51,369 nt of DNA from a virus: positions 1-51,369 of the IMG/VR virus record IMGVR_UViG_3300009184_004920, one strand, 5' to 3'. Positions 40,370-51,369 of this stretch are shown piece by piece (positions within the stretch are counted from its first letter, which is position 1; each line of letters begins with the position of its first letter). The position numbers and the translations under genes are program-made. The notes beneath the pieces are model-generated. The model was given only the letters and a program-made list of their open reading frames with translations, was not told the origin of the DNA and did no database searches.

Positions 40370-41411
40370 CTTCTTTTGAAACACCAAGAACTCTCGCTTT
40401 CCATTCGCCCATGCTCTCTAGCCTATTAGCTTCTTCGCTAATTATCTTCTTTTGCATCTCTGCAATCTTGACCATGTTTTTGCGCTCTTCCTCATCCTGA
40501 AACAACTGAACCAAAGAAATAATTGATGCATTTTCTTTGTATTTATTTTTCATTCTTTCGGCGCGATCACCTTGCAGTTTTTTAGTGAGATTTTCAATGC
40601 GCCCTTCGCATTGATGGTATTCGCTGGACTTTGCCTTGATGATTTCAGCAAGCCTCATGGTTATATCTTGTTGATCGTCAATCTCATCAAATTGATCGTT
40701 AAGTTTGTTCAAGTGCTTGCCAACAACTTCCAAGTTGATGATTTCTTTGCACACGTTCATGTAAAGATTCAATTCATCAGAGGATAGGTCTGGCTTGTCC
40801 CAAGTTAAACGAATAAATTCTTCTTCAAAAAGAATGCGATCTTTTTGCGACAAGTAATTATTCATGATTGTCACAAAGCGAGAATTGGAAAGATTAATAG
40901 TGAGCTTATCAATGCAAATCTTATACTGGCGAGAAATTTTATTTTCGTCTAGAGTCAAACCTGTAGCATCATTGATCTTTTTTAAGACGCGACTAGAAGC
41001 TTTTGGCGGAATGTACTCTGTGAGCAGTGCAGACTCAGAATTACCAACAAGATCAGGATTCACTAGTCTAATGTAGTCAAGAATCGCTCTTTGCTCCATG
41101 CCAAGCTTTTTAACTTCGCGATCTTGGAAAATTAATTCAGCAATGCGAAAAGTGGATGTTCCAGCTTGACTCTGCAAAAGAGCAAACTGTTTTTGAGCGT
41201 CATTTAATTCAATGCTTTCGCTCTTTTCTTTTTTTGTGGTTGTGAAGGAGTAATTGTTATCAATTAAAAATTGCCTAACCAAACGGCCTTCTTTTTTTCT
41301 TCCATCCAAAGACTGATCATTGAAACACCTTTTAGTGAGTTCGTTGAGATCAGTGATTTGCAAATAGTTTTCGCTAATGAATTTTTTTTGCTCTTCTGTG
41401 AGATCGCTCAT
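40359..41411 (-). CDS. putative terminase small subunit or packaging-associated protein
   Basis: 350 residues. A helical N-terminus with a possible helix-turn-helix (LTEEQKKFISENYLQITDLNELTKRCF) and a long helical/coiled C-terminal half (EIIKAKSSEYHQCEGRIENLTKKLQ). No family is certain. The position immediately upstream of the nuclease and large terminase genes is where a small terminase is expected. Its length is longer than usual. ATGA-type overlaps join it to the sigma factor gene before it and the nuclease gene after it. Confidence 0.45.
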   Translation of the reverse strand: MSDLTEEQKKFISENYLQITDLNELTKRCFNDQSLDGRKKEGRLVRQFLIDNNYSFTTTKKEKSESIELNDAQKQFALLQSQAGTSTFRIAELIFQDREVKKLGMEQRAILDYIRLVNPDLVGNSESALLTEYIPPKASSRVLKKINDATGLTLDENKISRQYKICIDKLTINLSNSRFVTIMNNYLSQKDRILFEEEFIRLTWDKPDLSSDELNLYMNVCKEIINLEVVGKHLNKLNDQFDEIDDQQDITMRLAEIIKAKSSEYHQCEGRIENLTKKLQGDRAERMKNKYKENASIISLVQLFQDEEERKNMVKIAEMQKKIISEEANRLESMGEWKARVLGVSKEDVI

Positions 41412-42094
41412 AAAATGTCTTTATTCTTTAAGATTTCAACAGCCTTGTCTCGAAAAAGCTTTTTGAGATTTTTGATTTGCTTGTAGCCGATTTTACGATT
41501 TTTTTCGCTGCTGCGATAGCCTAAAAATTTTGCAACATCTTCGTCCGACATCTTTTCGAAGAAAAGCATTTCATAGGCGCGAAAATAGTTTTCTGACAAT
41601 ACTTTTTTCATCTCTTGATTAAGCAAAGAGATTGATTGAGAATAGTCTAGTTGATGCAGAGGCATCTCTTCAACTTCGCGAGAGTGATTTTCCAACTCTA
41701 GCGGAAGCTTAATGTTATAACCGTATCTTTTGCTCTTGGACCAAACAGCATACTTTTCACAAGAGGAGTCTTGTGATCCGCTGATGTTTAGAGAACAAAA
41801 ATCATCGCCCAAATTGTAAGGGCAACTCATGCACGGTTTAACGTAATTTGTATAATTGTTGCGAATAAGATTTCGAATCTGATTAGCAATGACGCGAGAA
41901 AGCCAAGGCTCAAGAGCTTTCTTCTGGTCCCACATGCTCCACTTTTTGAAGATGTGTAATTTAATGATTTGCTCAACGTCTTCGAAAGACATCCATTTTA
42001 ATACGTTAAGCTGCCATTTGTTTCGGCGCTTTCGTATTTCGATTTCAATGATTGGTAGCTTTTCCTCGAAAAGAATTTTTTTACGTCTTGGCAT
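41408..42094 (-). CDS. phage RNA polymerase sigma factor (late-transcription type)
   Basis: 228 residues. Region 2-like segment: WMSFEDVEQIIKLHIFKKWS, then ALEPWLSRVIANQIRNLIRN (34-79), matching the core-binding and -10-binding helices of small sigma factors. A four-Cys cluster follows (Cys88, Cys91, Cys100, Cys112), probably a zinc site. Region 4-like helix-turn-helix: FRAYEMLFFEKMSDEDVAKFLGY, ending IGYKQIKNLKKLF (171-214). It probably directs host RNA polymerase to phage promoters; the GTGTAATTATAA-like boxes are candidate targets. It overlaps the zinc-ribbon gene by 14 nt and the next gene by 4 nt. Confidence 0.72.
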   Translation of the reverse strand: MPRRKKILFEEKLPIIEIEIRKRRNKWQLNVLKWMSFEDVEQIIKLHIFKKWSMWDQKKALEPWLSRVIANQIRNLIRNNYTNYVKPCMSCPYNLGDDFCSLNISGSQDSSCEKYAVWSKSKRYGYNIKLPLELENHSREVEEMPLHQLDYSQSISLLNQEMKKVLSENYFRAYEMLFFEKMSDEDVAKFLGYRSSEKNRKIGYKQIKNLKKLFRDKAVEILKNKDIL

Positions 42095-44399: not shown

Positions 44400-44807
44400 A
44401 TGAACAAGAGTTTAGAAAAGTGCGTGGAAATAACTAAAGGACTAAAGCCTCACAAACAGAATGGCCGCAGTTTTCATGCCACTTTTATTTTTGACAAGAA
44501 GAGACTGCTCAGCATTGGCTACAATGACTATAAAAAGCATCATCCCTATCACAAGCTGGGCAAGTACATTGGCTACAAAACTAACCCTGAAAAATACCAG
44601 CCCTGCTTGCATTCTGAGATTAGTGCCTTGTTGAAACTGGGTGAAGAAGATTTGAGTCGTTGTGTTTTTGTTAATGTGAGAATAGACCAGAGAGGCGAAC
44701 TAGCCCTAGCAAAGCCTTGCCAAAATTGCGAAAGAGTTTTGCGGCAGGTTGGTTTTAAAAAGCTTTTTTATTCTTCTGAAAAAGGGTTTGTGGAAATGAT
44801 GGGTTGA
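44400..44807 (+). CDS. cytidine/deoxycytidylate deaminase-like protein
   Basis: 135 residues. The zinc and catalytic motifs of the deaminase superfamily are present: CLHSEISALLKL (His and Glu, about 69-80) and KPCQNCERVLRQ (PCxxC, about 105-116). Members convert dCMP to dUMP or cytidine to uridine, feeding dTTP synthesis. It is short and lacks an obvious dCTP allosteric extension. It is the last plus-strand gene before the gene-free stretch and transcribes away from the tube-like gene. Confidence 0.8.
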   Translation: MNKSLEKCVEITKGLKPHKQNGRSFHATFIFDKKRLLSIGYNDYKKHHPYHKLGKYIGYKTNPEKYQPCLHSEISALLKLGEEDLSRCVFVNVRIDQRGELALAKPCQNCERVLRQVGFKKLFYSSEKGFVEMMG

Positions 44808-45095
44808 TTTTTTTTCTTGTTTTAATAGCATTTGTTTGTTTTAAGAGGGGTGTTTTTTTATTAATTAGGGGGGGTAGTGAGTGCAAGATGGTGAGTAGCG
44901 TGGGGGGAGATGAATAGTTGTTTTTAAGAGTGGAGATTGAGAAAACCCACCCCTGGCGCGTTTAGGAGATTTCCTTAGGTCAAATTCTTAGGAAATGGGG
45001 GTGGGGGGTTTTCTTAGTCAACACTAGGGCAGTTACCTACGCCGCCCTAATGGGGGGCAAGCTGTCAAACGAAAACAAAAAAAACAAATAGTGGC

Positions 45096-45117
45096 ACTTG
45101 GCACGCTAATTTCCATA
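45096..45117 (+). repeat. TTGGCA box (ACTTGGCACG CTAATTTCCATA)
   Basis: One of three direct copies (others at 46444 and 48142) plus an inverted partial copy at 51221-51232. Each lies 40-55 nt upstream of a -35 hexamer and is followed by an A-rich tract. Possibly an activator site or UP-type element. Confidence 0.5.
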
Positions 45118-45141
45118 AAAGAAAAAGAACGAAAATAAATG

Positions 45142-45170
45142 CACATTGCGCTTGCAGGTCTGCGGATTTG
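45142..45170 (+). promoter_or_regulatory. putative early promoter of the 45205 gene
   Basis: TTGCAG-N17-AATATA; a TTGCGC lies just before it. Unlike most early genes here, a leader of about 30 nt (with CAGTTAACCA) precedes the ATG. Confidence 0.35.
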
Positions 45171-45204
45171 TGGCAATATATAAACAGTTAACCACATCAA
45201 CAAT

Positions 45205-45387
45205 ATGTCTCTCAAAAACTACACCTTCCTCCGCCTCCGCTCCCTTGGTTACTCGCCCCGCGAAGCTCTACGAATCTTGAACGTGGCTCGCCATTCTCGC
45301 TTGGAATGGGAAGAAAGCATCAACCTTTGCCTAGAGTGTCACGGCAAGGGGCCAATTTTCTATGTTCCGCAGGATTGCCTAGCATAG
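45205..45387 (+). CDS. small early protein with CxxCxGxG motif
   Basis: 60 residues. An N-terminal helix region (LRLRSLGYSPREALRIL, residues 9-25) could bind DNA. CLECHGKG (42-49) is a single copy of the DnaJ-type zinc repeat; only one further Cys is present, so zinc would need a dimer. Function unknown. Followed by a GC-rich patch with CCGCG/CGCGG inverted arms. Confidence 0.6.
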   Translation: MSLKNYTFLRLRSLGYSPREALRILNVARHSRLEWEESINLCLECHGKGPIFYVPQDCLA

Positions 45388-45428
45388 TTCACACGGGGGC
45401 CGCGCATCCTACACGCGGAAAATAAAAC

Positions 45429-45456
45429 TTGCGCTACCTCTTTCCCCCTCTAAAAT
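45429..45456 (+). promoter_or_regulatory. early promoter, leaderless design
   Basis: TTGCGC-N16-TAAAAT; 9 nt then ATG at 45466. The pyrimidine-rich spacer is typical of this region. Confidence 0.6.
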
Positions 45457-45465
45457 ACTCTTGTT

Positions 45466-45669
45466 ATGAATAACGAAATCAATCTCGCCGCCCTCGAAAC
45501 CAAAACCCTGACCGCTCTTCAATGGGTAATCATCCGCAACGCCTTGGAAGATAAGATGGAAGAGTTCGACAGCGCTGCCAGTTGGGCAGAATCCAAGGGC
45601 TACAGCAGCGAAGACTACTATCGCAACGAATATGCGAAGCGCTCCGAAATCTTGAAAGCTATCGCATAA
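45466..45669 (+). CDS. small early hypothetical protein
   Basis: 67 residues, mostly helical (LAALETKTLTALQWVIIRNA), acidic, with a Tyr/Glu-rich part (GYSSEDYYRNEYAKR). No family recognised. It has its own promoter and no Shine-Dalgarno sequence, so translation should be leaderless. Confidence 0.65.
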   Translation: MNNEINLAALETKTLTALQWVIIRNALEDKMEEFDSAASWAESKGYSSEDYYRNEYAKRSEILKAIA

Positions 45670-45675
45670 AATCGC

Positions 45676-45703
45676 TTGCGCGTTTAACCTTCCCCCCTAT
45701 ACT
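45676..45703 (+). promoter_or_regulatory. early promoter, leaderless design
   Basis: TTGCGC-N16-TATACT; 6 nt then ATG at 45710. Confidence 0.65.
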
Positions 45704-45709
45704 CTAATC

Positions 45710-45841
45710 ATGGAAACAATCGAAACCATCCCCGCCCTCCTCCTTGAAATGGCCGAAAAACTTTGGCCAGTCTCTGCTTTCGCCTCGCGTGAAGATTGGG
45801 AAGCCTACGTTGTCGAATGGCTCCCAAAGATTACAAAATAA
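45710..45841 (+). CDS. very small early protein
   Basis: 43 residues (METIETIPALLLEMAEKLWP, then VSAFASREDWEAYVVEWLPKITK). Amphipathic helices, acidic, Trp-rich. Supported by a good promoter just upstream, an ATG placed like those of its neighbours and the next promoter starting 4 nt after the stop. A longer out-of-frame reading across this stretch is not preferred. Function unknown. Confidence 0.6.
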   Translation: METIETIPALLLEMAEKLWPVSAFASREDWEAYVVEWLPKITK

Positions 45842-45844
45842 AAC

Positions 45845-45872
45845 TTGCGCCCCTCTTTCCCCTCTCTACTCT
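45845..45872 (+). promoter_or_regulatory. early promoter, leaderless design
   Basis: TTGCGC-N16-TACTCT; 9 nt then ATG at 45882. The -35 starts 4 nt after the preceding stop. Confidence 0.55.
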
Positions 45873-45881
45873 ACTCCTGCC

Positions 45882-46064
45882 ATGAACGCCCCCCTCTCCA
45901 AACGTGAAAGATTCGCCCTCCGAACATCCAAGGCTAGTCACCTGCCGAATGGTTTCGGCCCTCGCCTAGTGAACCCTGCGCCCTATGTCTGCCAGTGTGC
46001 AAGTTGCAAGGTTGAGCGTGAACTTGGCCTTTCCCTTCGCACGCCAAAGCAGTGCGAAGCATAA
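45882..46064 (+). CDS. small basic early protein with Cys cluster
   Basis: 60 residues, basic (SKRERFALRTSKASH) with Cys37, Cys39, Cys42 and Cys58 (YVCQCASCK), a possible zinc site. No family recognised. The start at 45882 fits the promoter; an upstream in-frame ATG at 45744 would run through the 45710 gene. Confidence 0.6.
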   Translation: MNAPLSKRERFALRTSKASHLPNGFGPRLVNPAPYVCQCASCKVERELGLSLRTPKQCEA

Positions 46065-46095
46065 GCAAACAACCTAAGCAACAACACTATCCACT

Positions 46096-46260
46096 ATGCA
46101 ATTCTCACCTACTGCCGAAGACATGCACGCCCTCGCTAGCGAGCACGACGCACGCTGCGATTCACTTAATCCCGAATGGGATGATTTCCTAAAGGAGCAA
46201 GAGGATAAGTTCTTAGATGCTTTCTATGAGAGGGCAGTGGAAAAGTCCTACGAACTTTGA
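46096..46260 (+). CDS. small acidic early protein, TAEDMHA family (copy 1)
   Basis: 54 residues: MQFSPTAEDMHALASEHDAR..., acidic. The N-terminus is shared with the proteins at 47309 (MQFSITAEDMHA) and 47716 (MNFSTTAEDMHA after a 3-residue extension). No promoter is obvious, so it probably follows the 45882 gene in one transcript. Repeat module A starts 53 nt after the stop. Function unknown; small acidic early proteins often bind host factors (inference). Confidence 0.65.
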   Translation: MQFSPTAEDMHALASEHDARCDSLNPEWDDFLKEQEDKFLDAFYERAVEKSYEL

Positions 46261-46312
46261 CTAAGCCTAGGCTAGGAAACTCTTAAGCCCCTTAAGTGGG
46301 GAGCCTAAGAAC

Positions 46313-46345
46313 TTTACCTAGGCCAGGGGGCCTGGGGTAGGTAAA
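46313..46345 (+). repeat. early intergenic repeat, copy A
   Basis: TTTACCTA-N17-TAGGTAAA, with inner CCAGG/CCTGG pairing and a GGG loop. The upstream half CCTAAG...CCTAGG is one base short of the alternative stem. Confidence 0.85.
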
Positions 46346-46443
46346 ATTCCTAAGACTCTAAGCCTAGTTCACCTAAGACAATCCCTTGCCTTTCCCTAAG
46401 ACGATTCTCTTGTCAAGAGAAACAAAAGAAATCTTTTCTGCGA

Positions 46444-46465
46444 ACTTGGCATGATAATTTCCATA
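46444..46465 (+). repeat. TTGGCA box, second copy
   Basis: ACTTGGCATG ATAATTTCCATA, 55 nt before the -35 of the 46532 gene. A palindrome TTCTCTTGTCAAGAGAA lies shortly upstream near 46405-46421. Confidence 0.5.
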
Positions 46466-46498
46466 GATGAAAAAGATGAAAACAAAACAAAAAAGAAT

Positions 46499-46526
46499 TT
46501 GCGGTTCTCTAGCCCTGTGGCATAAT
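46499..46526 (+). promoter_or_regulatory. early promoter, leaderless design
   Basis: TTGCGG-N16-CATAAT; 5 nt then ATG at 46532. An A-rich tract precedes the -35. Confidence 0.6.
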
Positions 46527-46531
46527 AAGTC

Positions 46532-46810
46532 ATGGAAACGAAAGCTCTGCTGACAAACGACCAAGTCCTCGCCCTTCTCAACAACGTCGCCCCCCGCGCC
46601 GTTACCATCACGAAAGATGAAACTCCGCTGGAAAACATTCTCGCTTCTCTCACTTCTTTCAACTACGAGAAAGAGGACGGCGTGACTCGCGTGGAAGGCG
46701 CAACTTTCCAGCACGTTGCAATCTCCAAGAACACTGGCAAGCAATACGCCACGTTCAAGACTTCCGATGGAAAGTTCAAGTCTTTCTTCACTGCCCAAAT
46801 TCAATTCTAA
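46532..46810 (+). CDS. small early hypothetical protein
   Basis: 92 residues: METKALLTNDQVLALLNNVA, then beta strands (TFQHVAISKNTGKQYATFKT). Faint similarity in layout to the 94-residue protein at 49046 (TKDNLIALLRSKKEA ... SGRTYITAKVID), so they may be paralogues. Own promoter; no Shine-Dalgarno sequence. An opposite-strand open frame over this stretch is a shadow. Confidence 0.68.
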   Translation: METKALLTNDQVLALLNNVAPRAVTITKDETPLENILASLTSFNYEKEDGVTRVEGATFQHVAISKNTGKQYATFKTSDGKFKSFFTAQIQF

Positions 46811-46811
46811 T

Positions 46812-46839
46812 TTGCCAAGCCAGAAAAACCTGTTACCTT
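46812..46839 (+). promoter_or_regulatory. early promoter, leaderless design
   Basis: TTGCCA-N16-TACCTT; 8 nt then ATG at 46848. Confidence 0.55.
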
Positions 46840-46847
46840 CTAACCCT

Positions 46848-47090
46848 ATGACAAACAAAATCCCCATGCAAGACAACATCACAATCTCCCGCGAAACTTT
46901 TTGCACCCTGCTTTCTTTCGCTAAGCGCGAGCAGACAATCTGCGACAACAACGCAAGAAACGCTCTTAAGAAAGTCGAGGAACTCCCGAACGACATTTTC
47001 TGGCAGGATTCGGTAAACTTCTGGAGGCAGGAAAGCCAGAACGCCCAGAATGCCTACAGAAAAGCCCTAGAAGAAGCGGAGACGCTCTAA
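46848..47090 (+). CDS. small helical early protein
   Basis: 80 residues from MTNKIPMQDNITISRETF. Charged helices (ICDNNARNALKKVEEL, FWRQESQNAQNAYRKALEEA). No family recognised. The start is set by the promoter; a longer in-frame reading would overlap the previous gene. Repeat module B follows 8 nt after the stop. Confidence 0.62.
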   Translation: MTNKIPMQDNITISRETFCTLLSFAKREQTICDNNARNALKKVEELPNDIFWQDSVNFWRQESQNAQNAYRKALEEAETL

Positions 47091-47098
47091 TCGGGCCT

Positions 47099-47140
47099 CC
47101 TAGGTGGTTTACCTAGGCCAGGCCCACTGGCATAGGTAAA
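47099..47140 (+). repeat. early intergenic repeat, copy B
   Basis: CCTAGGT-N5-ACCTAGG (7-bp stem) overlaps TTTACCTA-N17-TAGGTAAA (47108-47140). The middle arm TTTACCTA is shared, so only one stem can form at a time. Inner pairing CCAG/CTGG. Confidence 0.88.
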
Positions 47141-47173
47141 ATCCCTAAGACTCTTACCCTAGGAGTCTTACCT

Positions 47174-47210
47174 AAGAAGTCTATTTACTATTAGGGCGTT
47201 TCGAATTTGC
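47174..47210 (+). repeat. second conserved early element (TATTTACTATTAGG ... TTTCGAATTTG)
   Basis: Also found at 47614-47650 and, with an insertion, at 49806-49857. Lies 30-45 nt upstream of the -35 in each case; possible activator or phage-specific promoter element. Confidence 0.6.
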
Positions 47211-47242
47211 AGTTTGATGAATAAAAAACATGAAAAAAAGAT

Positions 47243-47270
47243 TTGCGCGTTCTTTGTTTTCTGTTATTCT
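47243..47270 (+). promoter_or_regulatory. early promoter
   Basis: TTGCGC-N16-TATTCT; a 38-nt leader containing CAGTTAACCA (also in the 45205 leader) precedes the ATG at 47309. Confidence 0.55.
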
Positions 47271-47308
47271 ATGCGCGTAGTCAGTTAACCATTAATATAT
47301 CCTCTGTT

Positions 47309-47506
47309 ATGCAATTCTCTATCACCGCTGAAGACATGCACGCCGCCCGCCCCGCTTATGACCTTGATGAGGTCAACGGTTTTGAGGGCGAAGAACCCTC
47401 CGACAATCAAGAGTTTGACACTCATGAAGATTACGTTGAGCCAACTGAGGATCAGTGGCTTGATAGCTATTACGAAAGCCAGACCGAATGCGACTTCGGT
47501 GAATGA
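47309..47506 (+). CDS. small acidic early protein, TAEDMHA family (copy 2)
   Basis: 65 residues, strongly acidic (EVNGFEGEEPSDNQEFDTHE). Starts MQFSITAEDMHA like the 46096 protein. The ATG at 47309 is preferred to an upstream in-frame one inside the promoter. Followed by a strong terminator. Function unknown; DNA mimicry or host-protein binding would suit the charge but is not shown. Confidence 0.68.
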   Translation: MQFSITAEDMHAARPAYDLDEVNGFEGEEPSDNQEFDTHEDYVEPTEDQWLDSYYESQTECDFGE

Positions 47507-47513
47507 CCTACGA

Positions 47514-47537
47514 GGGCGGCGAAAGCCGCCCTTTTTT
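47514..47537 (+). terminator. intrinsic terminator
   Basis: Perfect 7-bp stem GGGCGGC / GCCGCCC with GAAA loop and six T residues, 8 nt after the stop of the 47309 gene. Confidence 0.92.
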
Positions 47538-47547
47538 ATATACATTG

Positions 47548-47589
47548 CCTAGGAGGTTTACCTAGGCCGCGCCCCCTGGGATAGGTAAA
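47548..47589 (+). repeat. early intergenic repeat, copy C
   Basis: CCTAGG-N7-CCTAGG overlaps TTTACCTA-N17-TAGGTAAA (47557-47589). It lies directly behind the terminator, so it is not needed for termination here. Confidence 0.87.
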
Positions 47590-47613
47590 ATCCCTAAGAT
47601 TTTCGCCTTAGGT

Positions 47614-47650
47614 AAGAAGTCTATTTACTATTAGGAGATTTCGAGTTTGC
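47614..47650 (+). repeat. second conserved early element, copy 2
   Basis: AAGAAGTC TATTTACTATTAGG ... TTTCGAGTTTGC, almost identical to 47174-47210. Confidence 0.6.
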
Positions 47651-47679
47651 TATTTAGAGAATAAAAAATCATTTTTTTC

Positions 47680-47707
47680 TTGCGCGGACGAGGTAAACCG
47701 CTATTCT
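47680..47707 (+). promoter_or_regulatory. early promoter, leaderless design
   Basis: TTGCGC-N16-TATTCT; 8 nt then ATG at 47716. Confidence 0.62.
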
Positions 47708-47715
47708 ATAGCCCT

Positions 47716-47847
47716 ATGAACGAAATGAACTTCTCCACTACCGCCGAAGATATGCACGCCGCCGCCGCTGAGTTCAACGAGTTTTACGACTTGTTGCGCG
47801 AGGAGGCATGGGAGCATCAAGAAGCTTCTCTCACGCAAAACAACTAA
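47716..47847 (+). CDS. very small early protein, TAEDMHA family (copy 3)
   Basis: 43 residues: MNEMNFSTTAEDMHAAAAEF, then NEFYDLLREEAWEHQEASLT. The repeat + element + promoter + gene block at 47548-47847 parallels that at 47099-47506, so the two look like a tandem duplication. Function unknown. Confidence 0.65.
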   Translation: MNEMNFSTTAEDMHAAAAEFNEFYDLLREEAWEHQEASLTQNN

Positions 47848-47858
47848 ACTTAAATCTT

Positions 47859-48056
47859 ATGATGACACCCGACGAATATGATCCCCCCTCTTATGGGGGC
47901 ACTCCCACGCAGGAAGCCCATGCAGAAATGACTCTTTTGTTTGGCGCGGAAAAACCAACTCACGCTTGGATTCTTACGGACTTTGATGTGTGGGAACCGA
48001 ATCCTTTTTACTGCGGGCCTCCACAGCCTCATCCAGAAGACGATTACCATTGGTGA
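47859..48056 (+). CDS. small acidic Pro/Trp-rich early protein
   Basis: 65 residues from MMTPDEYDPPSYGG; rich in Pro, Trp, His and acidic residues (THAWILTDFDVWEPNPFYCG). 11 nt after the preceding stop, so the two probably share one transcript. An upstream in-frame ATG at 47808 lies inside the previous gene and is not preferred. No family recognised. Confidence 0.6.
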   Translation: MMTPDEYDPPSYGGTPTQEAHAEMTLLFGAEKPTHAWILTDFDVWEPNPFYCGPPQPHPEDDYHW

Positions 48057-48064
48057 GCATAAGC

Positions 48065-48106
48065 CCTAGGAGAAATACCTAGGCCACGCCCCCTGGCGTA
48101 GGTAAA
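48065..48106 (+). repeat. early intergenic repeat, copy D
   Basis: CCTAGG-N7-CCTAGG overlaps AATACCTA-N17-TAGGTAAA (48074-48106); the first arm has two changed bases, the spacing is kept. Confidence 0.82.
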
Positions 48107-48141
48107 ATCCCTAAGAGAAAACAAAAAAAACTTTCCTGCAA

Positions 48142-48163
48142 TCTTGGCATGCTAATTACTAGA
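48142..48163 (+). repeat. TTGGCA box, third copy
   Basis: TCTTGGCATG CTAATTACTAGA, 45 nt before the -35 of the 48221 gene. Confidence 0.48.
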
Positions 48164-48186
48164 ATAAAAACAAGTTAAAAAAGACA

Positions 48187-48214
48187 TTGCGCGAATCTCT
48201 TTTTCTGTTATCTT
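48187..48214 (+). promoter_or_regulatory. early promoter, leaderless design
   Basis: TTGCGC-N16-TATCTT; 6 nt then ATG at 48221. Confidence 0.62.
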
Positions 48215-48220
48215 GTGGCC

Positions 48221-48349
48221 ATGAAAAAAATCACATTTCGCAAGCCAAAAATCCTCTCTTTCCGCCTCTCCACTCGCAAAGTCGGCGGCATTCGTTTCGT
48301 GCGCGTGGGAAAACTTGTCTTTTCTTTCTGCGTGTCAAAGAAAGCGTAA
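48221..48349 (+). CDS. very small basic early protein
   Basis: 42 residues: MKKITFRKPKILSFRLSTRK, then VGGIRFVRVGKLVFSFCVSKKA. Very basic with alternating strands, so nucleic-acid binding is possible. Supported by its promoter and the next gene 21 nt downstream. An opposite-strand frame here is a shadow. Confidence 0.6.
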   Translation: MKKITFRKPKILSFRLSTRKVGGIRFVRVGKLVFSFCVSKKA

Positions 48350-48370
48350 CCCCTAACCAAACATAAAAAA

Positions 48371-48604
48371 ATGAGCCAACAAGCCGAAATCACCAAAGAA
48401 ATCCTTGCCAAATCAATTAAATTTAATCTGTCGCACGAACAAGCGACAGAATTGCTAAACTTTATTTTTATCGCTGCTGAATGCGAAGAGTTGGTAGTGC
48501 AAGCTCAAATGCCCGATCTTGCTTTTTCTTATCTTCGCACTCAAAAGGATGGACTGTATGGAGTTTCGCACGATCAAATTGATTCTTGGGCGGAAAACTC
48601 TTGA
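48371..48604 (+). CDS. small helical early protein
   Basis: 77 residues: MSQQAEITKEILAKSIKFNL, then SHEQATELLNFIFIAAECEELV. Acidic, helical. No family recognised. Likely cotranscribed with the 48221 gene; the next promoter's TTGACT overlaps its TGA. Confidence 0.62.
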   Translation: MSQQAEITKEILAKSIKFNLSHEQATELLNFIFIAAECEELVVQAQMPDLAFSYLRTQKDGLYGVSHDQIDSWAENS

Positions 48605-48629
48605 CTACTCCTCTTTTCTTGCTTATCTT
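48601..48629 (+). promoter_or_regulatory. early promoter overlapping a stop codon
   Basis: TTGACT-N17-TATCTT; 5 nt then ATG at 48635. The -35 contains the TGA of the 48371 gene. Confidence 0.7.
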
Positions 48630-48634
48630 TCACT

Positions 48635-48799
48635 ATGCACAACACTCCTATTGAAAACGCCGCTTTTCGCGTAACCTTTACAGAAACAAATTTGCTCTAT
48701 CTGCTTGGCGCTGAAACTCCAAACAAGGCCGCTATTGCACGCTGCAAAAAACAACTGAAAGAAGCGCGGCAAAACTTGAAACAGTTGAAAAGCTCTTGA
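48635..48799 (+). CDS. very small early protein
   Basis: 54 residues: MHNTPIENAAFRVTFTETNL, then a basic helix (ARCKKQLKEARQNLKQLKSS). No family recognised. Tight promoter-to-promoter packing on both sides supports it as a gene. Confidence 0.6.
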   Translation: MHNTPIENAAFRVTFTETNLLYLLGAETPNKAAIARCKKQLKEARQNLKQLKSS

Positions 48800-48824
48800 C
48801 TTCTTTCCCTTTCTCGCTTATCTT
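48796..48824 (+). promoter_or_regulatory. early promoter overlapping a stop codon
   Basis: TTGACT-N17-TATCTT; 6 nt then ATG at 48831. The -35 contains the TGA of the 48635 gene. Confidence 0.7.
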
Positions 48825-48830
48825 ATCCCC

Positions 48831-48995
48831 ATGAACGAAGAAATCTTCACTACAATCTTTATCTCACTTACGCAACGCTTTGACCTTGCCTGCAAAGAAG
48901 TTGCCGAGTCGAAAAATGAAAAACTCAAAGACTACTGGCGGGAAGAAGCGGACAAAGCTCTTCAAGCTCGTCGATATATTGTAGAAAAGATTTGA
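48831..48995 (+). CDS. very small helical early protein
   Basis: 54 residues: MNEEIFTTIFISLTQRFDLA, then charged helix (KNEKLKDYWREEADKALQAR). No family recognised. Own promoter, leaderless. Confidence 0.6.
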   Translation: MNEEIFTTIFISLTQRFDLACKEVAESKNEKLKDYWREEADKALQARRYIVEKI

Positions 48996-49019
48996 CTTCT
49001 CTCCTTTCTCGCTTATCTT
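48992..49019 (+). promoter_or_regulatory. early promoter overlapping a stop codon
   Basis: TTGACT-N16-TATCTT, overlapping the TGA of the 48831 gene. The ATG of the next gene is 26 nt away, so this mRNA should have a short leader. Confidence 0.6.
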
Positions 49020-49045
49020 ATCCCCTAACCAAAAAACAACACACT

Positions 49046-49330
49046 ATGAAAGACCTCATCACCAAAGACAATCTAATCGCCCTTCTTCGTTCCAAGAAAG
49101 AAGCAGTCATCGAAACGCTGAACAACAAGCATGTTGTTTACCTGAACGAAGGAAATTCAAGCGTCAAAACCAACGGCGTGCGCAGTTTCACCATCAAAGA
49201 CATTGAAGGCGTGAACACTGGCAAATCTGGCCGCACCTACATCACCGCCAAGGTCATCGACCATGATGACGGCGATGCCGAAAAATATCGTTCCCTTCAC
49301 ATCGCGGGCCTTGAACTCGCTTGGGAATAG
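49046..49330 (+). CDS. small early hypothetical protein
   Basis: 94 residues from MKDLITKDNLIALLRSKKEA; beta-rich C-terminal part (SGRTYITAKVIDHDDGDAEK). Possible paralogue of the 46532 protein. The start at 49046 follows a short leader; an in-frame TTG inside the promoter is rejected. The tRNA-like element starts 6 nt after the stop. Confidence 0.65.
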   Translation: MKDLITKDNLIALLRSKKEAVIETLNNKHVVYLNEGNSSVKTNGVRSFTIKDIEGVNTGKSGRTYITAKVIDHDDGDAEKYRSLHIAGLELAWE

Positions 49331-49336
49331 TCTTTT

Positions 49337-49399
49337 GAAGAGAGACGGCAATTGGAAAATGCCCCTAATAGGCTAGTAGGTTCAAACCCTACCCTCTTC
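49337..49399 (+). ncRNA. tRNA-like element with collapsed anticodon arm
   Basis: 63 nt. Acceptor-like ends GAAGAGA / CCTCTTC pair at 6 of 7 positions. A D-arm-like hairpin GGCA-ATTGGAAAA-TGCC and a perfect T arm GTAGG-TTCAAAC-CCTAC (with TTCAA) are present. Only 12 nt (CCTAATAGGCTA) remain where the anticodon arm and variable loop should be, so no ordinary anticodon exists and CCA is not encoded. It may be a shrunken tRNA, a tRNA mimic or an RNA-processing site. Confidence 0.45.
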
Positions 49400-49422
49400 T
49401 TTACTTTTAATCAATAAAAAAT

Positions 49423-49680
49423 ATGCTACGCCTAGAATCCTCCACTACTTCTGTAAATGCCGCTTGGCATTATCTCTTAGAAAACAAATGCAGCTTTAGC
49501 TCTCCTGTGCAAATGCTTTCTTCTCGCGCCTTGCAAAAGGCAAAGCTCAAACCCCTCGCGCCGATTGAAAGCAGAGTAAAAATCCTCTCTAGGGCTAACG
49601 CTAAAAAGAAAGCAAAAACTTTCTTGCTTAAAGCAGAGGAAAAAATCTCAAACCTCGTAAAAAAAATCTCTAGGCGGTGA
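49423..49680 (+). CDS. small basic early protein
   Basis: 85 residues, Lys-rich C-terminal half (ANAKKKAKTFLLKAEEKISN) after SRALQKAKLKPLAPIESRVK. Possibly nucleic-acid binding. The tRNA-like element ends 23 nt upstream. No clear promoter of its own. A stem-loop follows the stop. Confidence 0.58.
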   Translation: MLRLESSTTSVNAAWHYLLENKCSFSSPVQMLSSRALQKAKLKPLAPIESRVKILSRANAKKKAKTFLLKAEEKISNLVKKISRR

Positions 49681-49690
49681 TAAGACAAAA

Positions 49691-49727
49691 GGGGGTGGAG
49701 AGGTTAGTGTTGTTCCTCTCTGCCCCC
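49691..49727 (+). other. 13-bp hairpin without T run
   Basis: GGGGGTGGAGAGG pairs with CCTCTCTGCCCCC (two wobble pairs) around an 11-nt loop. No T tract follows, so it is either a weak terminator or an mRNA 3'-end stabiliser. Confidence 0.6.
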
Positions 49728-49735
49728 TAAGTTCT

Positions 49736-49777
49736 CCTAGGTGATTTACCTAGGCCAGCGGGCCTGGGGTAGGTAAA
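49736..49777 (+). repeat. early intergenic repeat, copy E
   Basis: CCTAGGT-N5-ACCTAGG overlaps TTTACCTA-N17-TAGGTAAA (49745-49777). Inner pairing CCAG/CTGG. Same shared-arm layout as copy B. Confidence 0.88.
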
Positions 49778-49805
49778 ATTCCTACTCTTTCTTAAGAAAG
49801 ATGCC

Positions 49806-49857
49806 TAAGAAGACTATTTAAAGCTTTCCTATTTAGTATTAGGGGGTTTCGAATTTG
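49806..49857 (+). repeat. second conserved early element, copy 3 (with insertion)
   Basis: AAGAAGAC TATTTA ... CTATTTAGTATTAGG ... TTTCGAATTTG; the extra segment AAAGCTTTCC separates two partial TATTTA units. Confidence 0.5.
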
Positions 49858-49876
49858 GATTTTTATCTTTTTCTAT

Positions 49877-49904
49877 TTGACGGAAGCGCTTTTGCCTCTA
49901 TAGT
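49877..49904 (+). promoter_or_regulatory. early promoter, leaderless design
   Basis: TTGACG-N16-TATAGT; 6 nt then ATG at 49911. Confidence 0.65.
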
Positions 49905-49910
49905 AGAAAC

Positions 49911-50117
49911 ATGAACCACACATTAGAAACCGCAGGCAACCTACTCCGTCAAATCAGTGAAGAAAGCAGAGGCGTGGCCTTGACAAAGGAACAGGCGCAC
50001 ATTTTCAACGCAGTGTTCTACAGGGGCATGCTGGAAGACCTCATTGTCGGCAACGAAACAATTGCCAAACATTTTGAAGAACGCCTTGACCTTGTGCGAA
50101 AATATAATAAGCTCTAA
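49911..50117 (+). CDS. small early hypothetical protein
   Basis: 68 residues: MNHTLETAGNLLRQISEESR, helical throughout. No family recognised. First gene of a tightly linked set (49911, 50120, 50326, 50453). Confidence 0.62.
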   Translation: MNHTLETAGNLLRQISEESRGVALTKEQAHIFNAVFYRGMLEDLIVGNETIAKHFEERLDLVRKYNKL

Positions 50118-50119
50118 TC

Positions 50120-50329
50120 ATGAACAAAACAGACATCAACTGGCGAGACATTCACGAAGATGATTCCATCTTTGAAAAAGAAAACAAGAATCGCGCAATT
50201 CTTGTCCAAACAAATGTTGCAAATTCTCCAATGAGTGCAAGAGTGACTATAGCGCGATATGTTAGCATCTTAAACAATCGTGATTTTTCTTTGGAAGAAA
50301 ACGTTACTTTTTACGCTTTCCTAACATGA
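50120..50329 (+). CDS. small early hypothetical protein
   Basis: 69 residues: MNKTDINWRDIHEDDSIFEK, then ARVTIARYVSILNNRDFSLE. Starts 2 nt after the previous stop, so translation is coupled. No family recognised. Confidence 0.6.
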   Translation: MNKTDINWRDIHEDDSIFEKENKNRAILVQTNVANSPMSARVTIARYVSILNNRDFSLEENVTFYAFLT

Positions 50330-50460
50330 AACATCACCTCGGCACAATCTCAGACCGCGAATTAAAAAAGCGCGTGCGCAAAGACCTTCCGCCGCCGCCG
50401 CAGAAACATAAGAGCGCGAAAGATTACCGCCGCAATCCCAAACATAAAAACAATGGATAG
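50326..50460 (+). CDS. very small basic, proline-containing early protein
   Basis: 44 residues: MKHHLGTISDRELKKRVRKD, then LPPPPQKHKSAKDYRRNPKH. Very basic. The ATGA overlap with the upstream stop and the 8-nt overlap with the next gene support it. Function unknown. Confidence 0.55.
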   Translation: MKHHLGTISDRELKKRVRKDLPPPPQKHKSAKDYRRNPKHKNNG

Positions 50461-50635
50461 CTTCAGAGCAGAACAAAAGAAAGAATGCCTTGACGGCAGC
50501 AAAAACAAACGCGCCAAATATGGTTGCCGTTGCTGCTGCAAAATTCGAGACGTTAGCGAGCACAAGAAATTCTCTCGCGCCCTTGCGCGTGCGAGGCTCA
50601 AAAATAAAGACAAAAAAGACTTGCCAGAAGAATAA
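50453..50635 (+). CDS. small basic Cys-rich early protein
   Basis: 60 residues with GCRCCCK at 24-30 and a Lys/Arg-rich C-terminal half (FSRALARARLKNKDKKDL). Could be a metal- or nucleic-acid-binding peptide. Starts inside the end of the preceding gene. The next promoter overlaps its end. Confidence 0.55.
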   Translation: MDSFRAEQKKECLDGSKNKRAKYGCRCCCKIRDVSEHKKFSRALARARLKNKDKKDLPEE

Positions 50636-50648
50636 AAACTGTTATCTT
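50621..50648 (+). promoter_or_regulatory. early promoter, leaderless design
   Basis: TTGCCA-N16-TATCTT; 6 nt then ATG at 50655. The -35 lies inside the 50453 gene. Confidence 0.6.
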
Positions 50649-50654
50649 GCCAGC

Positions 50655-51032
50655 ATGACCCAAGCACAATTCCACAACAAAGTTCTGACTCATTACTTTG
50701 AAGCTCGCAATAAAAAACGTAATCATGCAATCTCTCAAACGATTGCGGAAATCGAAAGCAAATCAAACGAGGCAGATCAAACAAAACAAAAGCTTTTACC
50801 TAAAATGACCAAAGGGAAAGCTAAACCGTTTGAATCAATGGAATTTTATGAAGCGCGGGGCGTTTATGCCGCCCTTGTTGGTTTGGCTTACACATTGCGA
50901 GAAGCACGCAAGCAAATCTTTTACGACATTGATGAAATTGCTCACTTGACAAGGCCAGAGTGGAATGGCCGCGAACCTTTGCGGGAAGAAGTTGACACCG
51001 AAAAAATGTATGAAATTTTAAGTGACGTATAA
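50655..51032 (+). CDS. early hypothetical protein
   Basis: 125 residues from MTQAQFHNKVLTHYFEARNK; helical, charged, with FYEARGVYAALVGLAYTLREARKQIFYDIDEI in the second half. No family recognised. The ATG at 50655 is fixed by the promoter; an upstream in-frame ATG at 50490 lies inside another gene. Largest gene of the early region. Confidence 0.65.
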   Translation: MTQAQFHNKVLTHYFEARNKKRNHAISQTIAEIESKSNEADQTKQKLLPKMTKGKAKPFESMEFYEARGVYAALVGLAYTLREARKQIFYDIDEIAHLTRPEWNGREPLREEVDTEKMYEILSDV

Positions 51033-51052
51033 ACTTTCTTGACTTTCTCTCG

Positions 51053-51112
51053 CCTAGGGGACAAGAGGCTCCATGCCTCGATCAACGGAGAAATCCCGCG
51101 ACTTACCCTAGG
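51053..51112 (+). other. possible three-way-junction RNA structure
   Basis: Outer arms CCTAGGG / CCCTAGG (7 bp) enclose GAGGC-TCCAT-GCCTC (5 bp) and a short GGA-GAAA-TCC hairpin. It lies just before repeat copy F and uses the CCTAGG arm that in other copies pairs with ACCTAGG. Confidence 0.35.
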
Positions 51113-51161
51113 TGGGGGGCTTAATACGTTTACCTATGCCAAGCGGCCTGGGATAGGTAAA
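51107..51161 (+). repeat. early intergenic repeat, copy F
   Basis: TTTACCTA-N17-TAGGTAAA at 51129-51161, followed by the same AATCCCTA as other copies. The upstream CCTAGGT is 15 nt away, so the alternative stem is weakened here. Confidence 0.83.
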
Positions 51162-51271
51162 ATCCCTATGCTCTCTTAGGGAACACTCCTAGGGGATAAC
51201 CTTGTCAAGCACTTTCTAAAAGCGTGCCAAGTTTACAAGAATAAAAAAGAATAAAAAACGCACAAAATGAT

Positions 51272-51300
51272 TTGCGCTCTTTCTTTGCGTGTGCTAAGTT
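51272..51300 (+). promoter_or_regulatory. early promoter
   Basis: TTGCGC-N17-TAAGTT; 10 nt then ATG at 51311. An inverted TTGGCA box (AGCGTGCCAAGT, 51221-51232) lies 40 nt upstream. Confidence 0.5.
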
Positions 51301-51310
51301 TACCTTGCCT

Positions 51311-51369
51311 ATGAAAAAACAAACACAAGCCATTGATGTGCTGGTCAACCTAGTTGACTGGATGATGAC
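51311..51369 (+). CDS. early protein, 3' end beyond the window
   Basis: Only the first 19 codons are visible: MKKQTQAIDVLVNLVDWMM. The start is supported by the upstream promoter. Nothing can be said about function. Confidence 0.5.
   Translation, partial: MKKQTQAIDVLVNLVDWMM

Follow-up and report, generated by a model that had tools for sequence, protein, structure and literature searches.

Six modules at the end of a phage record

The window is the whole of a 51,369-base virus record (IMG/VR record IMGVR_UViG_3300009184_004920), and it comes from a phage (a virus of bacteria). Behind the late genes, its last 5 kb contain small open reading frames (ORFs) on the plus strand, and the DNA between these early ORFs carries six copies of a repeated element, which we call modules A to F. 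A preliminary description of the sequence placed these copies at 46313, 47108, 47557, 48074, 49745, and 51129 and claimed an exact 17-nt core between two arms, and we found both statements to be accurate. Each of the six copies in the window is a 33-bp sequence of the form TTTACCTA-N17-TAGGTAAA, with no mismatches in the arms of five copies and two mismatches in copy D (whose left arm is AATACCTA). If up to 3 mismatches are allowed, then 0.37 modules are expected by chance, and 0 of 100 shuffles gave six. A search for the repeat elsewhere, which that description had proposed, found no modules in the other 45 kb of the window.

The copies are also flanked by outer boxes. With the 33 bp numbered as positions 1 to 33, the CCTAGG that was previously reported upstream of copies B to E does lie at positions -8 to -3, where A has CCTAAG and F has CTTAAT. 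A mirror-image box 3 nt past each module had been overlooked (CCTAAG in A to D, CCTACT in E, and CCTATG in F), so the module is symmetric on both sides. With these boxes, module A reads CCTAAG-N3-TTTACCTA-N17-TAGGTAAA-N3-CCTAAG and occupies 46304-46354 (core, 46313-46345). The others are module B at 47099-47149 (core, 47108-47140), C at 47548-47598 (core, 47557-47589), D at 48065-48115 (core, 48074-48106), E at 49736-49786 (core, 49745-49777), and F at 51120-51170 (core, 51129-51161).

Relatives were gathered by pattern and protein searches; some are close and some are distant, and their arrays are readable. About 59 modules were collected from ten IMG/VR contigs, including the window. The fixed spacing holds in these relatives: it is 17 nt in every copy from the near relatives, 18 nt in the distant relative G001, and either 17 or 18 nt in contig L122. 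The consensus is CYTARG-N3-TTTACCTA-N-GCCAGGC-N-GCCTGGC-N-TAGGTAAA-N3-CYTARG. The window's terminase and tape-measure proteins are distantly similar to those of Bacillus siphoviruses or SPbeta-type phages.

A 15-bp unit within the modules

The modules are built from a smaller unit. This is CYTARG-N7-CYTARG (consensus TAGGTAAWTTACCTA), which contains a 15-bp dyad, TARG-N7-CYTA (consensus CCTAGGTAAWTTACCTAGG); the profile of 167 distinct units is the dyad (C)CTAGGTAAWTTACCTAGG. TARG-N7-CYTA occurs 18 times in the window's last 5.6 kb, versus 0.18 expected. Gaps of 3-6 or 8-13 nt give at most three pairs each, so only the 7-nt gap is enriched. When TARG and CYTA tetramers are counted over seven arrays, a sharp peak also appears at TARG-N7-CYTA, and if the modules are masked, then seven contigs still contain 39 pairs with the 7-nt gap, versus a mean of 2.8 and a maximum of 7 at other gaps. 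The exact pattern CYTARG-N7-CYTARG occurs 10 times in the window, while the reversed-pattern control does not occur. Within the array, 32 of the 33 CYTARG hexamers are intergenic and one is coding (p = 3e-14), and in the rest of the window the hexamer is depleted (11 versus 39 expected).

Given the enrichment of this unit, we interpret the module as two putative operators, one at positions -6 to 8 and the other at positions 26 to 40, with TTTACCTA and TAGGTAAA as their inner half-sites and a GC-rich dyad as the bridge between them. Their centres are 32 bp apart (33 bp in the relative with the 18-nt core), which is about three helical turns, so both units would share one face of the DNA. This arrangement also accounts for the two overlapping, mutually exclusive inverted repeats of the preliminary description. 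As geometry they are real: the dyad between the units overlaps the dyads within the units. As for their meaning, two neighbouring 15-bp operators of the form TARG-N7-CYTA are a better account than competing hairpins.

Between the genes of the early region, units also occur singly and in chains. Additional units are either linked at a 13-bp spacing or come 23-27 bp further on. For example, a TAAG-N7-CCTA unit at 46293-46307 lies 13 bp upstream of module A and has one box in common with it. There is a TAGG-N7-CCTA unit (CCTAGGAGTCTTACCTAAG) behind module B at 47160-47174, another unit behind module E at 49793-49807, a TAGG-N7-CTTA unit before module F at 51109-51123, and one more behind module F at 51177-51191. 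A chain of two units with 13-bp spacing is found in intergenic DNA before the first early gene, at 44963-44990.

Placement between genes

The modules have a regular place between the end of one gene and the promoter of another. In close relatives, a module starts 15-21 nt past a stop codon, if there is no terminator, or just past a terminator. (Copies A and F and the modules of G001 keep less strictly to these distances.) In the window, the stop codon of the preceding ORF is 18 nt upstream of module B, for which no separate terminator was found, and a stop codon is also 18 nt upstream of module D. Module C is preceded by an intrinsic terminator (GGGCGGCGAAAGCCGCCC and a T run, plus strand, 47512-47533, RNA fold z = -4.6) that ends about 19 nt before it, and module E is preceded by a terminator-like hairpin (plus strand, 49690-49728, z = -3.6) that ends 17 nt before it. 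The modules themselves are not followed by a T run, as had been noticed before. An intrinsic terminator has a GC-rich hairpin and then a T run, so we reject the modules as intrinsic terminators; the real terminators are separate and lie upstream.

Promoters lie downstream of the modules, usually 30-150 bp away. They consist of an A-rich element, TTGCGC or TTGACT, 16 nt, and TATCTT or TACTCT, with the ATG 4-12 nt later. In window positions 45676-51311 and the relatives' arrays, this pattern has 54 matches, versus 1 on the reverse strand. Because the ATG is so close behind the -10 element, the mRNAs should be leaderless. Examples on the plus strand are TTGCGC-N16-TATTCT after module C (47680-47715, with the ATG 8 nt past the -10 element, and hence leaderless), TTGCGC-N16-TATCTT after module D (48187-48220, ATG 6 nt past), and TTGACG-N16-TATAGT after module E (49877-49910, ATG 6 nt past). 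Many such promoters have no module, so a module marks the boundary of a transcription unit rather than every promoter. We also observed that most early ORFs have their own promoter, with apparently leaderless mRNAs across the early region, and that a second intergenic repeat (about TATTTACTATTAGGNGNTTTCGAATTTG) lies between modules B, C, and E and their promoters, at 47150-47230, 47600-47680, and 49800-49876.

Sequence is kept, pairing is not

The preliminary description suggested that the modules could be an RNA switch or attenuator or an RNase III-type processing site. More broadly, they might be RNA elements that form a structured 3' end, an attenuator, a switch, or a processing hairpin, with two exclusive folds. 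The dyads do permit hairpins. Also, copies B and D and most of the copies in L122 are 17-21 nt from a stop codon, mostly without another terminator. Nevertheless, it is the sequence that is kept and not the pairing: TACCTA and TAGGTA are nearly invariant across copies, and covariation is absent. What had been taken for compensating changes (CCAGG/CCTGG, CCAG/CTGG, and CCA/TGG) is one dyad that is kept to different lengths. Across 35 aligned copies, changes on both sides of a pair are fewer than shuffling the columns gives, and the covariation score is 0.024 as compared to 0.035 when shuffled (481 of 500 shuffles scored at least as high). We saw no clear covariation for the alternative hairpin with the upstream box, and arm variants such as AATACCTA and TAGGTATC occur without compensation. 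One pair of orthologs (G005/G012 versus G006) does have an exact paired change, from A14-T20 to G14-C20, in nearly identical DNA, but this is a single event, and palindrome-templated mutation could also produce it.

Other tests gave similar results. A-C mismatches are as frequent as G-T mismatches on the transcribed strand, with no excess of the latter. No single minimum-energy structure is common to the six copies in the window, whose z values run from -0.4 to -2.9. Copies D and F do fold with z of -2.9 and -2.2, but in the folds of A, C, and E the arms are not paired with each other. Among the 167 units, there is no excess of pairing at R5-Y2 and a slight excess at Y2-R5. No Rfam match was found in 44400-51369 (E up to 1). 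Finally, many copies follow a strong intrinsic terminator, and with its T run ending about 19 nt upstream, such a module lies outside that transcript. The four tests (covariation, mismatches, folding, and position) point to an element that acts at the level of DNA, and neither a switch or attenuator nor an RNase III site is supported. We consider an RNA element of any of these kinds to be unlikely.

Paired operators as the probable explanation

Judging from the sequence, the modules are probably paired operators for a candidate DNA-binding protein that is probably encoded by the phage and probably dimeric. Operator boxes for a repressor, at fixed spacing, were among the earlier suggestions, and this suggestion is supported in a sharper form: 15-bp dyad units are paired at 32 bp, with conserved geometry and intergenic placement. 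We propose that the bound dimers would interact over the GC-rich bridge, and that a nucleoprotein complex would result. This complex could control the early promoters, or it could block polymerase that reads through from the previous gene, as stoperators do, or both. Modules B and D, which lack their own terminator, would rely on that block.

Several observations weigh against this explanation. Among the matches listed from Pfam, NCBIfam, and PHROGs, there is no obvious repressor in these incomplete contigs, and given that the gene set looks lytic, a lysogeny repressor is unlikely. The modules lie at varying distances from the promoters (roughly 30 to 150 bp), and many early promoters lack one, which is a poor fit to a simple promoter-blocking operator. 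Also, paired operators do not need the inner CCAGG/CCTGG dyad or a fast-changing centre made only of G and C.

By analogy, the modules most likely work like the sites of MrpR or like stoperators, without our assigning them to either system. MrpR has a degenerate tyrosine-recombinase fold, and MrpR-type proteins are divergent. It is the master repressor of SPbeta and binds SPBRE, a 15-bp repeat that was identified with MEME in various intergenic regions (PMC10516654). As described in the part of that paper that we draw on, SPBRE is, like our modules, a short intergenic repeat of a siphovirus-type phage, and our core is likewise 15 bp long. Nothing in that part presents SPBRE as two sites held at a fixed distance around a GC dyad, and we saw no lysogeny module in our contigs. 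Nor did we find an MrpR-like protein: 17 contigs gave no match to Phage_integrase (PF00589), although these genomes are incomplete. Stoperators are found in cluster A mycobacteriophages such as L5, with more than 20 sites in short intergenic spaces and promoter regions, and they are proposed to halt both initiation and elongation (PMC9283540). Our modules likewise lie in short intergenic spaces, 15-21 nt past stop codons or about 19 nt past a T run. However, a stoperator is a 13-bp asymmetric site that points in the direction of transcription and to which a monomer binds (PMC9283540), while the unit that we describe is a 15-bp dyad, TAGGTAAWTTACCTA, in mirror-image pairs.

A fast-changing centre

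The middle of the module changes quickly. When orthologous modules are compared, all 22 of 22 differences are confined to positions 14-20, which are the central 7 bp, although the pairs share sequences and so are not independent. There are no changes in the 8-bp arms or at positions 9-13 and 21-25, and the flanks differ by 1-2.4%. In two independent genome pairs, 8 of 63 sites in the centre changed, versus 23 of 625 four-fold degenerate sites, or about 3.8 times the rate (p = 0.005). The changes in the centre come as a few multi-base events, and the central 7 bp are almost solely G and C. None of the known operator systems that we considered predicts a fast-changing GC centre between unchanging arms.

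Other explanations

The modules might instead be a nucleoprotein site for replication, partition, or DNA packaging (i.e., an iteron-like or centromere-like array) rather than operators of transcription. Clustered, phased, intergenic boxes that are bound by a multimer would look much the same, and near 44.4 kb, beside the array, the coding direction switches and the GC skew changes sign. On the other hand, the copies do not form a compact locus: they are dispersed over several kb, between a gene end and a promoter where one block meets the next. So this explanation also seems improbable.

The combination of terminator, module, and promoter might be a mobile cassette that is kept because homologous recombination between copies shuffles the early genes. 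This would resemble the promoter early stem-loops (PeSLs) of T4-type phages (Arbiol 2010, Comeau 2014; via PMC4503421) or the motif of a promoter plus an inverted repeat in the haloarchaeal virus HGTV-1 (PMC3950731). As far as the account of PeSLs that we rely on goes, the arrangement is similar, with a terminator, a stem-loop-like dyad, and an early promoter repeated together between small and variable early genes. Several contigs end inside the array, and homology on one flank is more common among pairs of modules (41 pairs) than homology on both flanks (33). But boundaries without a module are equally one-sided (39 one-sided and 18 two-sided), so no special role of the modules in shuffling is apparent. 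Relative to PeSLs as described there, the phage is not T4-like (its terminase and tape measure are nearest, if distantly, to Bacillus siphoviruses), and its dyad stands apart from the terminator, shows no conservation of pairing, and is not enriched at recombination junctions. Such a cassette would also leave the geometry of the operators unexplained. As a replacement for paired operators we find it quite improbable; it may hold in addition to them.

Another idea is that the modules are sites of site-specific recombination that allow small cassettes to be exchanged. In the sites of loxP/FRT-type tyrosine recombinases, inverted 13-bp arms surround a variable centre of 7 or 8 bp. The module has inverted arms within 11-13 bp around a spacer within 6-8 bp: its 13-bp arms are TTTACCTANGCCA and TGGCNTAGGTAAA and its spacer is 7 bp, for a 13-7-13 arrangement (13-8-13 in G001). 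It would also fit that the changes between orthologs are confined to the spacer, where they are about 3.8 times as frequent as at four-fold degenerate sites, and that the gene content between modules differs among relatives. However, no match to Phage_integrase (PF00589) was found in 17 contigs, including one of 91.6 kb, although the genomes are incomplete and a host Xer could act. Unlike in loxP or FRT, the spacer is GC-rich and itself mostly palindromic, and the half-sites build separate 15-bp operators elsewhere, both singly and in chains outside of the modules. Recombination between identical spacers in direct repeat (modules C and D, or four copies in G006) would delete genes, which argues against such a site. 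Mosaic breakpoints are not enriched at modules over other gene boundaries, and we rejected the modules as recombination hot spots on the same grounds. Overall, recombination sites are a quite unlikely explanation.

A variant of this idea is a new kind of lox-like site whose half-sites double as operators, with the 13-bp arms fixed by a phage protein and the 7-8 bp centre diversified. We think this is very unlikely. If it were true, then strand exchange or the processing of hairpin tips would be how the centre outpaces neutral DNA, and the phage would be swapping single leaderless genes, each with its own promoter.

Lastly, we rejected an element derived from the host: a scan of the bacterial and archaeal genomes in GTDB gave 8 matches, about the chance level, and the CCAGG...CCTGG core was in none of them, which makes a host regulator unlikely.

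Other viruses and neighbouring features

In a search of other viruses, the consensus pattern of the operator matched 58 stretches, which is also about the chance level. Just one of these loci is strongly enriched for the N7 gap, and it comes from the same lineage. In contig G017, from an unrelated AT-rich phage, 5 TARG-N7-CYTA units form a weak cluster (L140:16458-19230); most are of the form TAGG-N3-TTTTCTTA, and the contig carries no related proteins.

The array is truncated at a contig end in the window (at its right end) and in G002, G003, G005, G006, and G012. Probably the repeats break the assembly, and it follows that the early regions of this lineage are truncated in the databases. In G001, a tmRNA (tag ANKKALKKTRMHLRRIA) and a tRNA-Arg are found beside the last module (L073:6418-6805 and L072:17342-17415), which could help in placing the host.

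The first gene behind module A (46532-46810, plus strand) encodes a 92-amino-acid protein, and it is also the first-module gene in most relatives. It has a predicted SH3-like barrel and a weak match to WYL_2; given how weak the matches are, we draw no conclusion about it as the binding protein and treat it as a weak lead. Among the proteins of the contigs, profile searches picked out ECF-like sigma factors: the window encodes an ECF-sigma-like protein at 41408-42094, and G012 has a second protein with sigma-70 region 2 (L066:5285-5869). The window also encodes small acidic paralogs (46096-46260, 47309-47506, and 47716-47847) that have the N-terminus (M)QFS.TAEDMHA in common and variable acidic C-termini; these are found in close relatives as well. 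At 49336-49401 there is a tRNA-like remnant (GAAGAGA...GTAGGTTCAAACCCTACCCTCTTCT) that neither ARAGORN nor Rfam calls.

Implications

If the modules are paired operators, then one 15-bp operator, in phased pairs, marks the boundaries of the early gene blocks, and the regulatory code of an uncultured phage lineage would be legible genome-wide from its sequence alone. The operator would be a precise bait for finding the phage's regulator. The modules would also be a case for understanding how polymerase stops and starts between densely packed leaderless genes.

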